Shown here piece after piece: positions 49,830 through 55,205 of a stretch of 64,000 nucleotides of DNA. Within the stretch, counting starts at the first letter, position 1; every line of letters starts with the position of its first letter. Origin of the DNA: Anaerolineaceae bacterium (GTDB lineage: Bacteria > Chloroflexota > Anaerolineae > Anaerolineales > Anaerolineaceae); contig JAJUGU010000001.1 of the NCBI GenBank assembly GCA_029265815.1, forward strand, positions 372,001 to 436,000, read 5' to 3'. The notes beneath the pieces are model-generated. The model was not told where the DNA came from, did no database searches, and worked only from the letters and a program-made list of their open reading frames with translations. A program made the translations under genes and the position numbers.

Positions 49830-50714
49830 ATGCCTTTTAATGAAAAATCTCGTTTGGATCCTTCTCAAATCCAGGATCGGCGTGGAAGGAGCACAGGTAA
49901 AACCATTGCGATAGGTGGTGGAGGAATCGGTATCATTATTGTGATCGTTGCACTTCTTCTAGGCGTAAATCCCGGTGATCTTACAAATATGACAGGATTA
50001 CTGCCCTCCACCTCAGATCTGAGCGCTGGCGAGATTAGCGATCTGGTTGCTGAATGCCAGACTGGAGCAGACGCGAACGCGCGCGAGGATTGCGCCATCG
50101 TGGGCTATGTCAACAGCATTCAGGCTTTCTGGTCTGATGAATTCGCAAATCATGGCTTTGAATACACTCCATCTCAAACGGTGCTCTTTTCCGGAGCAAC
50201 TCAAGCTGCCTGTGGCTTTGCTTATGGCGCGATGGGACCCTTTTATTGTCCGAGCGACCAAAGTGTTTATCTAGACCTTGCTTTCTTTGATGAACTTCAG
50301 ACTCGTTATGGCGCTCAAGGTGGGTCTTTTGCTGTTGCTTACATTTTAGCCCACGAATATGGTCATCACGTTCAGGATCTTCTCGGGTTATTGAACACAG
50401 CGAGTGGTTCCTCAAGTCGAGGACCGCTGAGTACGTCCGTTTATACTGAACTACAGGCAGACTGTCTGGCCGGGATTTGGGTCTACCATGCCGTTGAAAC
50501 CGGTTACCTGGCTTACATAACGCAAGAGGAGATAGCTCAAAGCCTGGATGCTGCTGCTTCTGTGGGAGATGACCGAATCCAGCCTGCAACGCAAGGCTAC
50601 GTTTCACCTGAGACCTGGACGCATGGATCCTCTGATCAGCGTTTATCAGCATTGGAAGATGGTTTACAATCGGGAGATATTAACACCTGCGAAACACCAG
50701 GTTGGACTCCCTAG
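49830..50714 (+). CDS. membrane-anchored neutral zinc metallopeptidase (YpfJ family)
   Basis: A 294-residue protein with a short basic N-terminus, one membrane helix (about 26-44) and an extracytoplasmic peptidase domain of the YpfJ/KPN_02809 family. The zinc motif is HEYGHH from His175 and the third ligand is probably Glu in TELQADCLAG. SFADYFSDE-like and CGFAYGAMGPFYCPSDQSVYLD segments are family-typical. AAAGGAGG precedes the ATG. It is divergent from the subtilase gene. Confidence 0.9.
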   Translation: MPFNEKSRLDPSQIQDRRGRSTGKTIAIGGGGIGIIIVIVALLLGVNPGDLTNMTGLLPSTSDLSAGEISDLVAECQTGADANAREDCAIVGYVNSIQAFWSDEFANHGFEYTPSQTVLFSGATQAACGFAYGAMGPFYCPSDQSVYLDLAFFDELQTRYGAQGGSFAVAYILAHEYGHHVQDLLGLLNTASGSSSRGPLSTSVYTELQADCLAGIWVYHAVETGYLAYITQEEIAQSLDAAASVGDDRIQPATQGYVSPETWTHGSSDQRLSALEDGLQSGDINTCETPGWTP

Positions 50715-50911
50715 TTTGCTGATTTTTCAAGCCTGGGTCGCTTTCTGTATTGTATTTTGACAAAGATTTTGCTGAATAGCTTAAGTAAGGATCATTTCTG
50801 TGTACTCATAAATATCATCTGAGTTTTATAAACCATACGAGAAGAGCATTTATGATGGTTTGCATTCCTGATGAAATTATGAAACTCCATCCTGCCTTAA
50901 TAATTAAAAAA

Positions 50912-51186
50912 TGCGAGGGTGGGATTTGCTTGCCCTAGAATCATCAGGGAACCCACATCCAATCTTTAAAAAAAAGAGTGGCGAGAGTGGGATTTGCCTG
51001 CCCTAGAATCATCAGGGAACCCACATCCAATCTTTAAAAAAAAAAAGAGTGGCGAGGGTGGGATTTGCCTGCCCTAGAATCATCAGGGAAACCACATCCA
51101 ATCTTTAAAAAAAAGAGTGGCGAGGGTGGGATTTGCTTGCCCTAGAATCATCAGGGAAACCACATCCAATCTTTAAAAAAAAGAGT
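50912..51186 (-). repeat. four tandem 68-71 bp repeats derived from the 3' part of the adjacent tRNA
   Basis: Unit starts are 50912, 50980, 51051 and 51119, and the tRNA 3' end begins at 51187 in register. On the plus strand each unit copies GGCGAGGGTGGGATTTG (acceptor and T-stem 3' strands), then has a 21-base insertion starting CTTGCCC or CCTGCCC and ending ATCAGGG. It then resumes with the other T-stem strand CCCACATCCAAT (ACCACATCC in units 3 and 4) and ends CTTT-A(8-12)-GAGT. The insertion sits inside the T loop and can pair CCCT with AGGG. Length differences come mainly from the A-run. Each unit could fold as a modified T-arm hairpin followed by a U-run on the tRNA strand. Confidence 0.88.
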
Positions 51187-51257
51187 GGCGAGGGTGGGAT
51201 TTGAACCCACATCCAATGGCTTATGAGTCCACTGCTCCACCATTGAGCTACCTCGCC
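51187..51257 (-). tRNA. tRNA with anticodon CAU (Met or Ile2)
   Basis: 71 nt: acceptor stem GGCGAGG/CCTCGCC, D arm GCTC-AATGGTG-GAGC, anticodon loop CTCATAA (CAU), variable loop of 5, and T arm GTGGG-TTCAAAT-CCCAC. The discriminator is A, and CCA is not encoded. The anticodon stem has an A-G mismatch next to the loop. CAU may read Met or, if modified to lysidine, Ile AUA; I cannot decide which. A T-run follows directly, then the repeat array. Confidence 0.9.
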
Positions 51258-51267
51258 AACGCACGCT

Positions 51268-51296
51268 ATCTTACTATAACCTGAACGTTTTGTCAA
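51268..51296 (-). promoter_or_regulatory. sigma-70 promoter of the tRNA
   Basis: On the minus strand a perfect -35 TTGACA (51296-51291) is 17 bases from TAAGAT (51273-51268), ending 10 bases before the tRNA 5' end. Confidence 0.7.
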
Positions 51297-51333
51297 CGAC
51301 TCTCGCAAAAGATACCATCTATACGAAGTGATT

Positions 51334-52041
51334 TTATTGAGAAAATCCTAATCGTTTTTCTTTCATTGAAACATAAGTCCCTTGCCCAATCACCAGATGA
51401 TCTAACACCTCGATATCCATCAATTTCCCAGCTTCCACTGCCATCCGTGTTAAAGTCATATCCTCGGTGCTTGGAGTCGGATCACCACTGGGATGGTTAT
51501 GTACCAGAATCACTGATGCCGCGTTTCTCTGTATAGCTCCCTTGAACAACTCTGCCACACGCACCATTGAAGAATTTAACGATCCCACGTAAATTTTATC
51601 AATAAAGATTTTTCGATTGCGCGTGTCTAGAAGGATCACCCATAAATGTTCTTGCACTAAACCCTGCATCTCATATCGCACCAGCTCCGCGGCATCAGAA
51701 GGTGAGCTGATCGCTCCGCTCAATTCCCGATTTTCAAGATTCAGACGTCTACCCAGTTCGATCGCCGCCTTCAATTGTGCAGCTTTCGCGGGTCCCAGTC
51801 CGCGGATCTTGCACATCTCAGTAAAACTTGCTTTCTGGATTCCGCTCAGTCCCCCAAGTTCTTTCAAGATGCGTGTTCCCATCTGTACAGAATTTTCACC
51901 TTCCACTCCCACTCGCAGCAAGATGGCAATCAATTCTGCTTTACTTAGATATTCTGGTCCGTTATTCGCAAGACGTTCGCGCGGACGCTCATTTTCCTCA
52001 AGATCGGTAATGCGGTACGCAGCTTTGGTTTCTCTCGGCAT
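51334..52041 (-). CDS. radC: RadC-family JAB-domain protein
   Basis: A 235-residue protein of the RadC family: an N-terminal UPF0758 helical part with a helix-hairpin-helix (MCKIRGLGPAKAAQLKAAIELG) and a C-terminal JAB/MPN metal-binding domain with HNHPSGDPTPSTED. I choose ATG 52041 because GGGAGA is in place and the N-terminus PRETKAAYRITDL matches family starts. Upstream ATG/GTG-type starts would add about 50 unrelated residues. Despite the name, a repair role is not established. Confidence 0.92.
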   Translation of the reverse strand: MPRETKAAYRITDLEENERPRERLANNGPEYLSKAELIAILLRVGVEGENSVQMGTRILKELGGLSGIQKASFTEMCKIRGLGPAKAAQLKAAIELGRRLNLENRELSGAISSPSDAAELVRYEMQGLVQEHLWVILLDTRNRKIFIDKIYVGSLNSSMVRVAELFKGAIQRNAASVILVHNHPSGDPTPSTEDMTLTRMAVEAGKLMDIEVLDHLVIGQGTYVSMKEKRLGFSQ

Positions 52042-52131
52042 TGGTATTCTCCCTGATATCCATTTTTTATATATCAGCTTCAAGTTTTTCGCAAGACAGG
52101 GTGCTTTCAAATTACCAACACCGGTCATCCA

Positions 52132-52140
52132 TGCTATAAT
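52132..52140 (+). promoter_or_regulatory. extended -10 promoter TGCTATAAT
   Basis: It lies 18 bases before the ATG at 52159. The leader would start near the ATGGAGCGTTAA minicistron, whose GGAG also serves as ribosome site for 52159. Confidence 0.5.
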
Positions 52141-52158
52141 TTTGCAATGGAGCGTTAA

Positions 52159-52671
52159 ATGACCCTCGACCCTACATTTCTTAAACAACTTACCCTTTTT
52201 GCTACCGGTTTCTCGGCTGCCTTCCTGGCAGCTTTATGGTTGAGCCTCATATTTTGGACGCTGCGGGATATTCGTAAGCGCACCAAAGATCGCTTTTTGC
52301 GCATTCTTGCTGTGGTGATCGTTACCCTCCTCTTTCTGCCAGGAGTGCTTGTATATCTAATCTTGCGCCCCGCCAAAACCCTCGAAGAAGATTACCAGCA
52401 TTCACTTGAAGAAGAAGCACTTTTACAGTCCATTGAAGATGCAGCGATCTGTCCTGGCTGCAGCCGAAGAATCGACCGCGATTGGGTCGCCTGCCCTAGC
52501 TGCCACACCCGCCTTAAAAAGACATGTGAACACTGCGGCAAAGTCATCGAGTTACCCTGGAACCTCTGCCCATACTGCGCTACCCCGGTAGCTGGTATGC
52601 GCAAAGAGGCTCCGGTTGCTAAAGAAGATTATCAACCATTATTGGACGATAATTTCGAATCTCACCCTTAG
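52159..52671 (+). CDS. membrane protein with double zinc ribbon
   Basis: A 170-residue protein with two membrane helices (about 10-35 and 46-68), then an acidic linker and a cytoplasmic double zinc ribbon with four Cys pairs: CPGC, CPSC, CEHC and CPYC (residues about 96-150). No enzymatic motif. Such proteins may sense metals or act as protein adaptors. It starts 17 bases before the PfkB kinase gene and probably shares its transcript with kinase-parA-parB. Confidence 0.78.
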   Translation: MTLDPTFLKQLTLFATGFSAAFLAALWLSLIFWTLRDIRKRTKDRFLRILAVVIVTLLFLPGVLVYLILRPAKTLEEDYQHSLEEEALLQSIEDAAICPGCSRRIDRDWVACPSCHTRLKKTCEHCGKVIELPWNLCPYCATPVAGMRKEAPVAKEDYQPLLDDNFESHP

Positions 52672-52688: not shown

Positions 52689-53552
52689 ATGCAGACTCTT
52701 TCTACTATCGAACCTGTGGATTATTTGATCATTGGTCATATCACACAGGACATCACCACAGATGGATTGGTTCTAGGCGGTACCGCGTCGTATGCTTCAT
52801 TGACTGCAAGAGCATTTGGCTTGAAAGTTGGTATCGTCACTTCTTGTGCGCCCGATCTTCAACTTCCTGAGCTTGAAGGCATTCAAGTGATACGGAAACC
52901 ATCCGCTTTCACCTCAACCTTTAAAAATAATTACACACCCGCCGGGCGTATACAGTATATTCACCACGTGGCAGAAAAAATCACTTTCGATGACGTACCA
53001 CCTGTATGGCACAATACACCGATTGTACACCTAGGTCCCCTAGCCAATGAGATCGGACCTGAAATGGCCAGGTGCTTTCCTAATTCTCAGATTGATATCA
53101 CCCCGCAAGGCTGGTTGAGGGGCTGGGATGGTGATCATATCGTAACTTATCGTGACTGGCCAGAGGCTAATCAGGTGTTGCCTTTCGCGCATGCTACTGT
53201 GATGAGCATCGAAGATGTTCAGGGAAATGAAGATGTAGTATCCGAATTTGCTGCCCTTGTTTCCATCCTGGTTGTTACAGAAGGCGCAGAGGGTTGTCGA
53301 GTTTATTGGAAGGGTGACGTCCGCCATTTCACCCCCCCTCAGGAAAACGAAATTGACCCTGTTGGTGCAGGAGATGTATTTGCATCCTCATTCTTCATCA
53401 AATTAAAACAAACCCAGGATCCATGGGAGTCAGCCCGCTTTGCTACTCTTGTAGCTGCCAATTCTGTCACCCGTAAAGGAATCTTGGGCGTGCCAACTCG
53501 TTCAGAAATTCAAGCACTGCAAACTGAAATTGTTGAGCATTCGGTAAAATGA
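52689..53552 (+). CDS. PfkB-family carbohydrate/nucleoside kinase
   Basis: A 287-residue ribokinase-like kinase. LVLGGTASYASLTARAFG is the Gly-Gly hinge motif at the N-terminus, and DPVGAGDVFASSF is the ATP/catalytic-base motif with Asp near the C-terminus. It is slightly shorter than ribokinase. The substrate is unknown. Its stop overlaps the parA start by ATGA, an unusual but tight link to chromosome partitioning genes. Confidence 0.85.
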   Translation: MQTLSTIEPVDYLIIGHITQDITTDGLVLGGTASYASLTARAFGLKVGIVTSCAPDLQLPELEGIQVIRKPSAFTSTFKNNYTPAGRIQYIHHVAEKITFDDVPPVWHNTPIVHLGPLANEIGPEMARCFPNSQIDITPQGWLRGWDGDHIVTYRDWPEANQVLPFAHATVMSIEDVQGNEDVVSEFAALVSILVVTEGAEGCRVYWKGDVRHFTPPQENEIDPVGAGDVFASSFFIKLKQTQDPWESARFATLVAANSVTRKGILGVPTRSEIQALQTEIVEHSVK

Positions 53553-54340
53553 CACGCATTTACACTCTCGTAAACCAAAAAGGTGGCGTCGGAAAAACAA
53601 CTACCGCCATAAACCTGAGCGCCTACCTGGCAGCCTTTGGACAGCGCGTGCTCCTAATTGATCTTGATCCTCAGGCAAATGCTACGTCATCGCTTGGTAT
53701 CGACAAATACTCGGTCACCCGCGGCACCTATGAAGTGCTTATCGGTTCAGAACCAATCACCCCTAACATCTTGCACAACCCAAAATTCAAGATCTCCTTG
53801 CTCCCTTCTTCACCAGCTCTGGCCGGGGCAGAAGTTGAATTGATCAACATTGAGAAACGCGAGTTTCGCATGCGCGATGCGATCCAACCCATCATTAATC
53901 GATTTGATTATATCCTCATCGACTGTCCGCCTTCACTTAGTCTCCTTACAGTAAATGGTTTGGTAGCCGCTCGCAGCGGAGTCCTGATTCCTGTACAATG
54001 TGAGTATCTGGCTTTGGAGGGGATCAGTCAATTGACACAAACGCTCAACGGCATTCGCACCTCTCTCTATCCGGAATTAAAGATCCGTGGTGTAGTTTTG
54101 ACTATGTTTGACAGCCGCACCAATCTTTCATCAGATGTCGTGAAAGAAGTAAAAAAATTCTTCCCTAACCTTGTCTTTGAGACGGTAATCCCGCGTTCAG
54201 TACGTCTTGCCGAAGCTCCATCTTATGGGATGCCGATCTCAACCTATGCACCTGAAGCATTTGCCGCTAAATCTTACGCAGCCCTCACCCGCGAAATTTT
54301 AACCCAAGATGGCGAAACGTCATCATCTACAACGGAATAG
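53549..54340 (+). CDS. parA: chromosome-partitioning ATPase ParA/Soj
   Basis: A 263-residue Walker-type ATPase. The deviant Walker A KGGVGKTTTAINLSAYLA starts at residue 11 with the signature Lys, the A' motif is LLIDLDPQANATSS and Walker B is DYILIDCPPSL. It moves ParB-parS complexes over the nucleoid. It stands directly before parB, with their coding regions close together or touching depending on the parB start. Confidence 0.95.
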   Translation: MTRIYTLVNQKGGVGKTTTAINLSAYLAAFGQRVLLIDLDPQANATSSLGIDKYSVTRGTYEVLIGSEPITPNILHNPKFKISLLPSSPALAGAEVELINIEKREFRMRDAIQPIINRFDYILIDCPPSLSLLTVNGLVAARSGVLIPVQCEYLALEGISQLTQTLNGIRTSLYPELKIRGVVLTMFDSRTNLSSDVVKEVKKFFPNLVFETVIPRSVRLAEAPSYGMPISTYAPEAFAAKSYAALTREILTQDGETSSSTTE

Positions 54341-54350
54341 GCAGGAAAAA

Positions 54351-55205
54351 ATGGCACAAAAATCTGGTCTAGGAAAAGGATTGGAAGCATTAATCCCTGG
54401 CGGGTTTACCAGCACGCCTGCCACTGCCGACACATACGCACCAATTACAATGATCGCACCCAATCCTCGCCAACCACGCGAGAGTATGTCTGAAGAAAAC
54501 CTTTCAGAGTTGGCAGCATCCATTAGCGAACACGGTATCTTACAACCCCTCATCGTCACCCACGATCCGATCACTGGAATGTATACATTAATCGCTGGGG
54601 AACGCAGGCTTCGTGCTGCCAGAATGGCCGGTCTTGAAAAAGTCCCTGTCATCATCCGCTCTGTCACTGATCAGGAGCGTTTGGAACTGGCGTTGATCGA
54701 AAACGTACAACGTGCTGACCTCTCGCCACTGGAGACTGCTGCAGCCTATCGCCAACTGGCAGATGAATTTAATCTCTCCCATGACGAAATCGCTGCCAGG
54801 GTTGGAAAAAGTCGTGTCGCCGTGACAAACTCTTTACGATTGCTCAAGCTCCCTCAGCAAGTTCAAGATGCACTGACATCACAATCCATTACAGAAGGAC
54901 ACGCCCGGGCTTTACTTGGGTTACCCACTGAATCAGCCCAACTGGCAGCTCTTCACACTATCCTTAAAAACGAATTGAATGTGCGCCAGACGGAGGAATT
55001 GGTAAGAAAGCTTACAGGGGTAAAACCTCCTTCCCTCCCTGAAAAAGTAATTGACCCTCATGTTAAAGAGATTGAGGACCGGTTAAGCGAAAGATTGGGT
55101 ACCAAGGTCAGTCTGCGGCATGGCGAAAAAGGTGGATCGCTAACGATTCATTACTATTCTGATGAAGAATTGGATTCGCTGATCAATACTCTCATGGCCA
55201 AATGA
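54351..55205 (+). CDS. parB: chromosome-partitioning protein ParB/Spo0J
   Basis: A 284-residue ParB. The N-terminus KSGLGKGLEALIPGG is the ParA-stimulating region. The CTP-binding fold has PNPRQPRESMSEENL and GERRLRAARMAGL (box II), followed by the HTH region (LSHDEIAARVGKSRVAVTNSLRLLKLP) and a dimerisation tail. I choose ATG 54351 (AGGA upstream, canonical N-terminus) rather than ATG 54309 inside parA. I saw no parS palindrome in the window. Confidence 0.95.
   Translation: MAQKSGLGKGLEALIPGGFTSTPATADTYAPITMIAPNPRQPRESMSEENLSELAASISEHGILQPLIVTHDPITGMYTLIAGERRLRAARMAGLEKVPVIIRSVTDQERLELALIENVQRADLSPLETAAAYRQLADEFNLSHDEIAARVGKSRVAVTNSLRLLKLPQQVQDALTSQSITEGHARALLGLPTESAQLAALHTILKNELNVRQTEELVRKLTGVKPPSLPEKVIDPHVKEIEDRLSERLGTKVSLRHGEKGGSLTIHYYSDEELDSLINTLMAK

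Follow-up and report, generated by a model that had tools for sequence, protein, structure and literature searches.

The 3′ ends of tRNA genes are classic docking points of mobile DNA. Fragments of tRNA genes originating from integrated elements are well known, and in islands of tyrosine integrases they lie as tRNA 3′ copies downstream of the intact tRNA, as described in PMC9897764. The tyrosine integrases that target tRNA genes use dyad-symmetric regions of the anticodon and T loops (PMC8371274). Two further systems bear some likeness to the arrays described here: integron cassette arrays, with their short units, shared structured site (attC), variable remainder and possible growth at one end, and the repetitive hairpin-forming elements of sponge mitochondria, an analogy in form, which are short palindromic inserts alike in structure and divergent in sequence (PMC2800124). 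The closest known case is that of the tyrT/tyrV repeats of Escherichia coli K-12 (RtT, RF00391), a different family with the same layout, namely tandem repeats downstream of a tRNA gene that end in its 3′ end. The function and origin of these tyrT repeats have, to our knowledge, been open for decades. In the E. coli tyrV/tyrT stretch, three copies, spaced at 178 bp, match the 16 nt that precede the final CCA without a single mismatch, and by eye they begin in the T-loop and are preceded by palindromic sequence. An rtT RNA is reported to be released from the tRNA transcript (PMC4986893). Tandem repeats of tRNA 3′ ends are known but poorly understood, and the hairpin-interrupted arrays reported here are a further form; among the matches listed in our search of open-licence papers, we found no description of such arrays in Chloroflexota.

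We analysed a stretch of 64,000 nucleotides (the window) from an Anaerolineaceae bacterium whose genome comprises 2.58 Mb in 26 contigs (GCA_029265815.1; contig JAJUGU010000001.1, positions 372,001 to 436,000). An intact tRNA-Met(CAU) gene on the minus strand (51185..51257; ARAGORN, Rfam RF00005 71.3 bits) is the source of the repeated 3′ end, and four units, all on the minus strand, start directly at its 3′ end and run downstream with no gap. The original prediction had described four in-register units made of the 3′ third of a tRNA, each with an identical 21-nt T-loop insert pairing CCCT/AGGG, and we confirmed this anatomy, with unit lengths of 68, 68, 71 and ~66 bp. Tandem Repeats Finder reports the same array at 50913-51203 (score 520, period 68, 4.2 copies and 95% matches). 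In the direction of the tRNA, each unit passes from a T-run trailer through ATTGGAT (the variable loop), the T-stem 5′ strand and T54-T55 into the insert, after which come CAAAT and the 3′ strands of the T-stem and the acceptor stem. With the sequence CCCTGATGATTCTAGGGCARG, the insert sits at the same position (between T55 and C56) in all four units, and in unit 1 it occupies 51136..51156 (minus strand), where it can form the CCCT/AGGG hairpin. The T-runs are 8-11 long.

The units differ in two small features. Unit 1, nearest the tRNA (51117..51184), carries the T-stem variant GTGGT and the insert variant CAAG; unit 2 (51049..51116) combines GTGGT with CAGG; unit 3 (50978..51048), whose T-run is longer by 3, has GTGGG with CAGG; and unit 4, farthest from the tRNA (50912..50977), has GTGGG with CAAG, its far end being decayed past CCCTCGC with the last bases lost (boundary ~50912). 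From the tRNA outward, the T-stem thus switches from GTGGT to GTGGG between units 2 and 3, and the successive inserts read AAG, AGG, AGG, AAG. Because these variants do not change together, one simple duplication series cannot account for both: the proposed stepwise amplification is upheld, but not as a single series of that kind. The window units nonetheless look like plain tandem duplications, and the main rival to the reading that we favour below starts from here. It holds that the arrays are purely mutational, with slippage or unequal recombination duplicating the tRNA 3′ end, template switching making the hairpins, and gene conversion homogenising units and spreading insert motifs between tRNA loci, all without a dedicated system. 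The near-identity of the window units speaks for this account, as does the fact that most units, those of the window included, require only tandem duplication. It is a strong rival, and the window array by itself calls for nothing more; as an explanation of the arrays as a whole we regard it as possible, if rather doubtful.

Compared with the systems above, the window array resembles each only in part. RtT (RF00391) gave no match in window positions 50700-51500 at E up to 1 and none in seven array loci at E up to 0.1, with the E. coli stretch matching 4 times (133-138 bits) as positive control. At 178 bp, the E. coli units are also longer than nearly all array units here and, unlike tyrT, the arrays here occur at many tRNA genes per genome, have hairpins in the T or anticodon loop and include a terminator in many units. 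With the islands of tyrosine integrases they share, besides the downstream 3′ copies, many insert positions that coincide with the loops used by integrases (PMC9897764, PMC8371274), whereas the window array has no genes between its copies, several copies in tandem and a T-loop hairpin within them. An integrase with cargo between tRNA and fragment is absent, as only 470 bp separate the tRNA from the next gene, and in place of an unmodified tRNA 3′ fragment every window unit contains the 21-nt insert. The mitochondrial elements are reported from organelle genomes, where they lie in intergenic regions and some genes (PMC2800124), whereas the inserts examined here lie in tandem tRNA 3′ copies.

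To place the insert itself, we searched 41 genomes with a 23-nt pattern (the insert and flanking TT, up to 3 mismatches). Exactly 4 matches were obtained in the source genome, all inside the window array, and 0 in the other 40 genomes, with a reversed-pattern control of 0. Occurrence as an ordinary dispersed repeat, which the original prediction had named as counting against its interpretation, was thus not seen in these 41 genomes, and the insert likewise departs from REP/BIME elements, in which the same palindrome is dispersed over intergenic regions. A hammerhead-like reading of the CTGATGA in the window insert was rejected by eye, the partner motif being missing and the inserts of other species lacking CTGATGA.

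We then compared the same tRNA-Met gene in relatives. At least one close downstream copy was present in 7 of the 12 genomes scored in the genus (the source genome included); the figure was 7 of 18 for the family and 1 of 4 for other families, with an upstream control of 0; the copies in G002 and G015 were too diverged to enter this count. By eye, five units with inserts of two kinds are present in genome G011, and between one and about four units, with other hairpins, in each of G014, G015, G002, G009, G006, G001 and G003. Many of the Met copies follow a common plan of T-stem 5′ strand, hairpin, short tail and CAAATCC, while the inserts at one and the same tRNA differ completely between species. 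In the window, a radC-like gene lies upstream of the tRNA (51334..52188, minus strand; Pfam RadC 142 bits), and a Zn_peptidase gene is convergent with the tRNA and its array (49830..50714, plus strand; Pfam PF04228 245 bits). By tblastn, radC matches were found at 11 of 19 relatives' tRNA-Met loci, and the peptidase gene lay beside tRNA-Met in 1 of 19 (locus L003 of G004, 75% identity), at a distance from the tRNA of ~120-130 bp as compared to 470 bp in the window. No genes lie between the tRNA and the peptidase gene in the window, and the array takes most of the extra space. Near degraded units at L003 (~1600-1700) and L004 (~1650-1720), REP-like palindromes (GTGCGTT...AACGCAC) were noted by eye. 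ParA- and ParB-like genes are also found near the array (window 53549-55205, Pfam), from which we infer that the window may adjoin a replication origin.

Arrays were also found at other tRNA genes. A strict test, requiring 14 nt of the tRNA end with at most 1 mismatch within 500 bp downstream, detected copies at 6 of 44 tRNA genes in the source genome, 6 of 48 in G015, 2 of the 38 examined (47 found) in G024 from another genus, and 6 of the 46 examined (47 found) in G035, a one-contig genome from another family; upstream and reverse controls gave 0 in all four genomes. A looser scan of the source genome flagged 12 of 44 tRNA genes, reduced on inspection to about 10: Thr-TGT and Ala-CGC were dropped (the match being a neighbouring tRNA gene), as was Cys (a distant weak match), and Glu-CTC was added by eye. 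The resulting list comprises Met (two genes), Thr-CGT, Gly-GCC, Ser-GGA, Ser-CGA, Pro-GGG, Val-CAC, Gln-CTG and Glu-CTC. Downstream copies at tRNA-Thr(CGT) occur in 2 of 14 genomes of the genus, 2 of 22 of the family and 0 of 5 from other families, with one upstream control match, and those at tRNA-Pro(GGG) in 5 of 9, 7 of 17 and 1 of 10, respectively (control 0). Many inserts sit in the T-loop or T-stem or in the anticodon loop; one unit at tRNA-Cys of G015 has hairpins in both loops, and the tRNA-Glu copies of G000 and G024 have a similar anticodon-loop insert. Inserts outside the loops were seen in the acceptor strand of one tRNA-Glu copy of the source genome and before the T-stem of tRNA-Arg in G035. 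Sequence comparison thereby shows that such arrays recur at many tRNA genes in the Anaerolineaceae (family f1) and in a second family of the same order, f12.

Short tandem repeats are prone to mis-assembly, and one such array is indeed cut by the start of a contig (L213) and another contains Ns (L255). Arrays of diverged units nevertheless recur in many assemblies, including the 4.4 Mb one-contig genome G035, and comparable arrays at tRNA-Met and other tRNA genes are present in assemblies other than that of the window, so that we consider an assembly artefact highly improbable. That the arrays are real and widespread is well supported by these comparisons, as regards both anatomy and spread. 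Two tRNA-Pro loci have a more complex layout. At L317 (G015:C18, ~108.1 kb), a tRNA-Pro 3′ fragment followed by pseudo-T-arm units lies ~34 kb from the tRNA-Pro(CGG) gene at G015:C18:73768, and an island has possibly been inserted between that gene and the array. At L309 (G037:C62), three tRNA-Pro 3′ ends (near 29, 5958 and 10003) lie ~6 and 4 kb apart, with ORFs named by eye as transporter- and two-component-like between them.

One insert recurs across genomes. Motif A, CCCCATTGAGGGGATGATATTCGA, searched with 2 mismatches allowed (control 0), is present in 33 of the 301 genomes examined from the order, of which 5 belong to f1 and 28 to f12; when 400 genomes were sampled from the whole phylum, 12 matched, all of them from f12. 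Loci were retrieved from 30 of the 33 genomes, and 27 of these loci have a same-strand tRNA gene upstream, 18-132 bp from the first match and of the kinds Asn, Gly, Ser, Lys, Glu or Arg; two of the other three begin at contig ends, and the third lies behind a tRNA-Lys 3′ fragment that adjoins a tyrosine-recombinase-like gene. In 22 of the 27 loci, one or more units are close matches to the end of the locus's own tRNA. By eye, motif A separates position 53 from T54, and as many as five units follow one another in tandem. Out of 49 matches in the 27 loci, 32 run into the sequence of their own tRNA from T54, differing from it at no more than 3 of 20 positions; for 16 the own tRNA is the sole best match, and for 21 it is tied best; the remaining matches are decayed or shifted. 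That the own tRNA is best or tied best for 37 of 49 and close for 32 is what gene conversion predicts, and so favours the mutational account, against which stands the sharing of this 20-21-nt motif by copies of six tRNA kinds in two families, with arms that by eye are not drawn from the local T-stem. A phage origin of the insert was discarded, as viral contigs gave 0 matches for motif A, exact or relaxed, and 0 for a second motif.

We favour, by eye, a CCCC/GGGG hairpin for motif A over a pairing of GGGGAT with the T-stem ATCCC, since a CTCC/GGAG variant weakens the latter. Among 35 distinct units, two show the stem changed on both sides (CTCC/GGAG in L228, CCTC/GAGG in L207), while it is broken in L237 and L218, and also in L222. 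As the loci were collected by sequence similarity, these stem counts are biased and the covariation carries no statistical claim. The two double changes are nonetheless what would be expected if the units were selected RNA elements, i.e. T-arm-like structures (small RNA, decoy or processing signal) made by read-through, whose hairpins and terminators are functionally kept, an idea already proposed for the rtT RNA of E. coli; the broken stems run counter to this.

The terminators bear on this alternative in both directions. The original prediction had offered tandem terminators, a source of tRNA-like small RNAs, and the footprint of an element using the tRNA 3′ end as possible meanings of the array. 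Tandem terminators are not borne out in the window, where no hairpin-plus-T terminator was found in 50600-51500 (shuffles mean 0.8) and 0 of 4 segments contained a terminator-like structure, but they do fit the wider set, in which a terminator-like hairpin with a T-run occurs in 58 of 91 inter-unit segments from 33 arrays versus 3.1% of mononucleotide shuffles. The small-RNA suggestion gained no support: the three window stretches near units 1-3 fold no clearly better than shuffles (z -1.08, -0.55 and -0.53), and the lone strong score among seven stretches (L285, -3.55) is due to its terminator. The frequency of terminators would suit a selected RNA element, as would the tRNA-Pro arrays, which 5 of the 9 genomes scored in the genus possess and whose pseudo-T-arms are alike in G000 and G015. 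Against it, T-stem pairing is lost in many units (window units 1-2, and Ser units with ACGCG against CCCGC), many units sit behind terminators, the window units fold no clearly better than shuffled sequence, the inserts at the same tRNA are wholly different between species, and the Thr array is confined to 2 of the 14 genomes scored in the genus. We therefore judge selection for an RNA element to be unlikely as the explanation of the arrays.

The trailers record how the arrays may have grown. In the three-unit array at tRNA-Pro(GGG) of G006, pairwise identity is 44, 57 and 63% for the trailers (shuffles: mean 50%, sd 9) but 74-80% for the pseudo-T-arms, which are thus similar despite unrelated terminators. 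An identical 27-nt terminator stretch at tRNA-Pro is found in the outermost G006 unit, both G009 units and unit 2 of G012, which implies that this terminator is old; units nearer the tRNA in G006 and G012 contain different ones. For this shared type, whole-trailer identity is 95% between unit 2 of G012 and unit 1 of G009, and 58-72% between unit 3 of G006 and G000, G009 and G012, figures lowered by unequal lengths. This arrangement suggests that the tRNA-Pro units of G006 and G012 were gained at the tRNA end, and neighbouring units with unrelated terminators, while an older terminator is kept between species, are difficult for a purely mutational origin. In genomes without units, the terminator directly after tRNA-Pro is, by eye, unrelated between species. 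Judged by eye from the tRNA-Pro trailers, tRNA terminators look to turn over fast.

Of the 58 pairs of adjacent trailers in 33 arrays, 36 reach an identity of 80% or more, 9 are intermediate and 13 do not exceed 62%; the last class is inflated by unequal segments at L281 and L210, and L255 was dropped. Going by these pairs, arrays grow more commonly by local tandem duplication, which explains that of the window, and some have also gained units with differing terminators; the 36 near-identical pairs are again in line with the mutational account. We further asked whether the last unit matches the tRNA worse than the first. Among 34 arrays it was worse in 16, better in 2 and equal in 16 (p 0.0013), with up to 5 of 16 mismatches allowed and L255, distorted by Ns, included. 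Without L255 the counts were 15, 2 and 16 (p 0.0023); at no more than 4 of 16 mismatches they were 11, 3 and 18 (p 0.057), and at no more than 3 of 16, 10, 3 and 18 (p 0.092), all from arrays partly related to one another. The decay of distal units is hence a weak hint of growth next to the tRNA, and the weakness of this polarity at strict thresholds is a further point for the mutational account.

The enzymes were examined in the same genomes. The source genome has only 5 tyrosine-recombinase matches; the four of them that were scanned scored at most 41.4 bits, and none scores as an integron integrase. A canonical integron was rejected: the best integron integrase score in the source genome was 27.2 bits against a cut-off of 265, none of the 25 f1 genomes or the single f12 genome searched contained one above cut-off and, as a further difference from integrons, the units here are without genes. 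Integron integrases above the NCBIfam cut-off were seen in 8 of 41 genomes (G025, G026, G027, G030, G031, G034, G039 and G040), which belong to six other families of the order. In G273, a tyrosine-recombinase-like gene on contig C25 (L314, 5975-6898) ends at a tRNA-Lys 3′ fragment, ordinary-looking and without a hairpin (L223/L314), and a hairpin-bearing unit lies just beyond it (L223, ~1400-1500). Recombinase and fragment are probably the right end of an integrated element, the other end of which we did not locate. The analysis turned up no mobile intermediate, no pair of close strains with an empty site and no dedicated recombinase. The placement of many inserts in the anticodon and T loops is suggestive of tyrosine integrases.

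Our best explanation, held tentatively and at somewhat less than even confidence, is that recombination at the tRNA 3′ end builds the arrays and local duplication amplifies them; we lowered our confidence slightly after the stricter polarity results. In its favour are the strict downstream copies, the loop positions of many inserts, the mosaic tRNA-Pro units and the recombinase-like gene beside a unit in G273; against it are the small number of tyrosine recombinases in the source genome, the inserts outside loops, the lack of the motifs in viral contigs and the missing hairpin in the G273 tRNA-Lys fragment. As its sequence shows, the window array is a run of pseudo-3′-ends of one tRNA gene: a copy of the tRNA 3′ module, from the variable loop to the acceptor 3′ strand with its trailer and a short hairpin in the T-loop, was amplified by tandem duplication into the four window units. 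Comparison across f1 and f12 shows units accumulating at tRNA 3′ ends, each finishing with that tRNA's 3′ sequence and often containing a terminator; the newest probably lies next to the tRNA, an order drawn from the two tRNA-Pro arrays and the weak polarity. Foreign terminators would arrive with units that recombine into the tRNA 3′ end, most likely in a site-specific reaction of the tyrosine-recombinase type. The putative substrate would be a gene-less mini-cassette (terminator, hairpin-interrupted T-arm and tRNA 3′ end) whose insertion would keep the tRNA intact and swap its terminator. Of the three meanings originally offered, the footprint of an element using the tRNA 3′ end best fits the comparative data, though it is unproven, because sister units at tRNA-Pro differ in terminators and share the pseudo-T-arm and tRNA 3′ end, and because many inserts sit in the two loops targeted by tyrosine integrases. 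A bolder form of the idea, which we think distinctly unlikely, is that of short, mobile, gene-less 'terminator cassettes', in which a transcription terminator is joined to a hairpin site recognised by its structure and to a tRNA 3′ end; these would insert by tRNA genes, replace their terminators and form integron-like, end-polar arrays through a recombinase other than an integron integrase.

Taken together, the arrays point to a recurrent process that builds repeats at tRNA gene ends. With a tyrT-like layout present at many tRNA genes in two families, they constitute a large natural data set on the turnover of tRNA ends and terminators. As their hairpins lie mostly in loops used by integrases and their terminators seem to come and go, they also allow testing for unrecognised recombination at tRNA ends.
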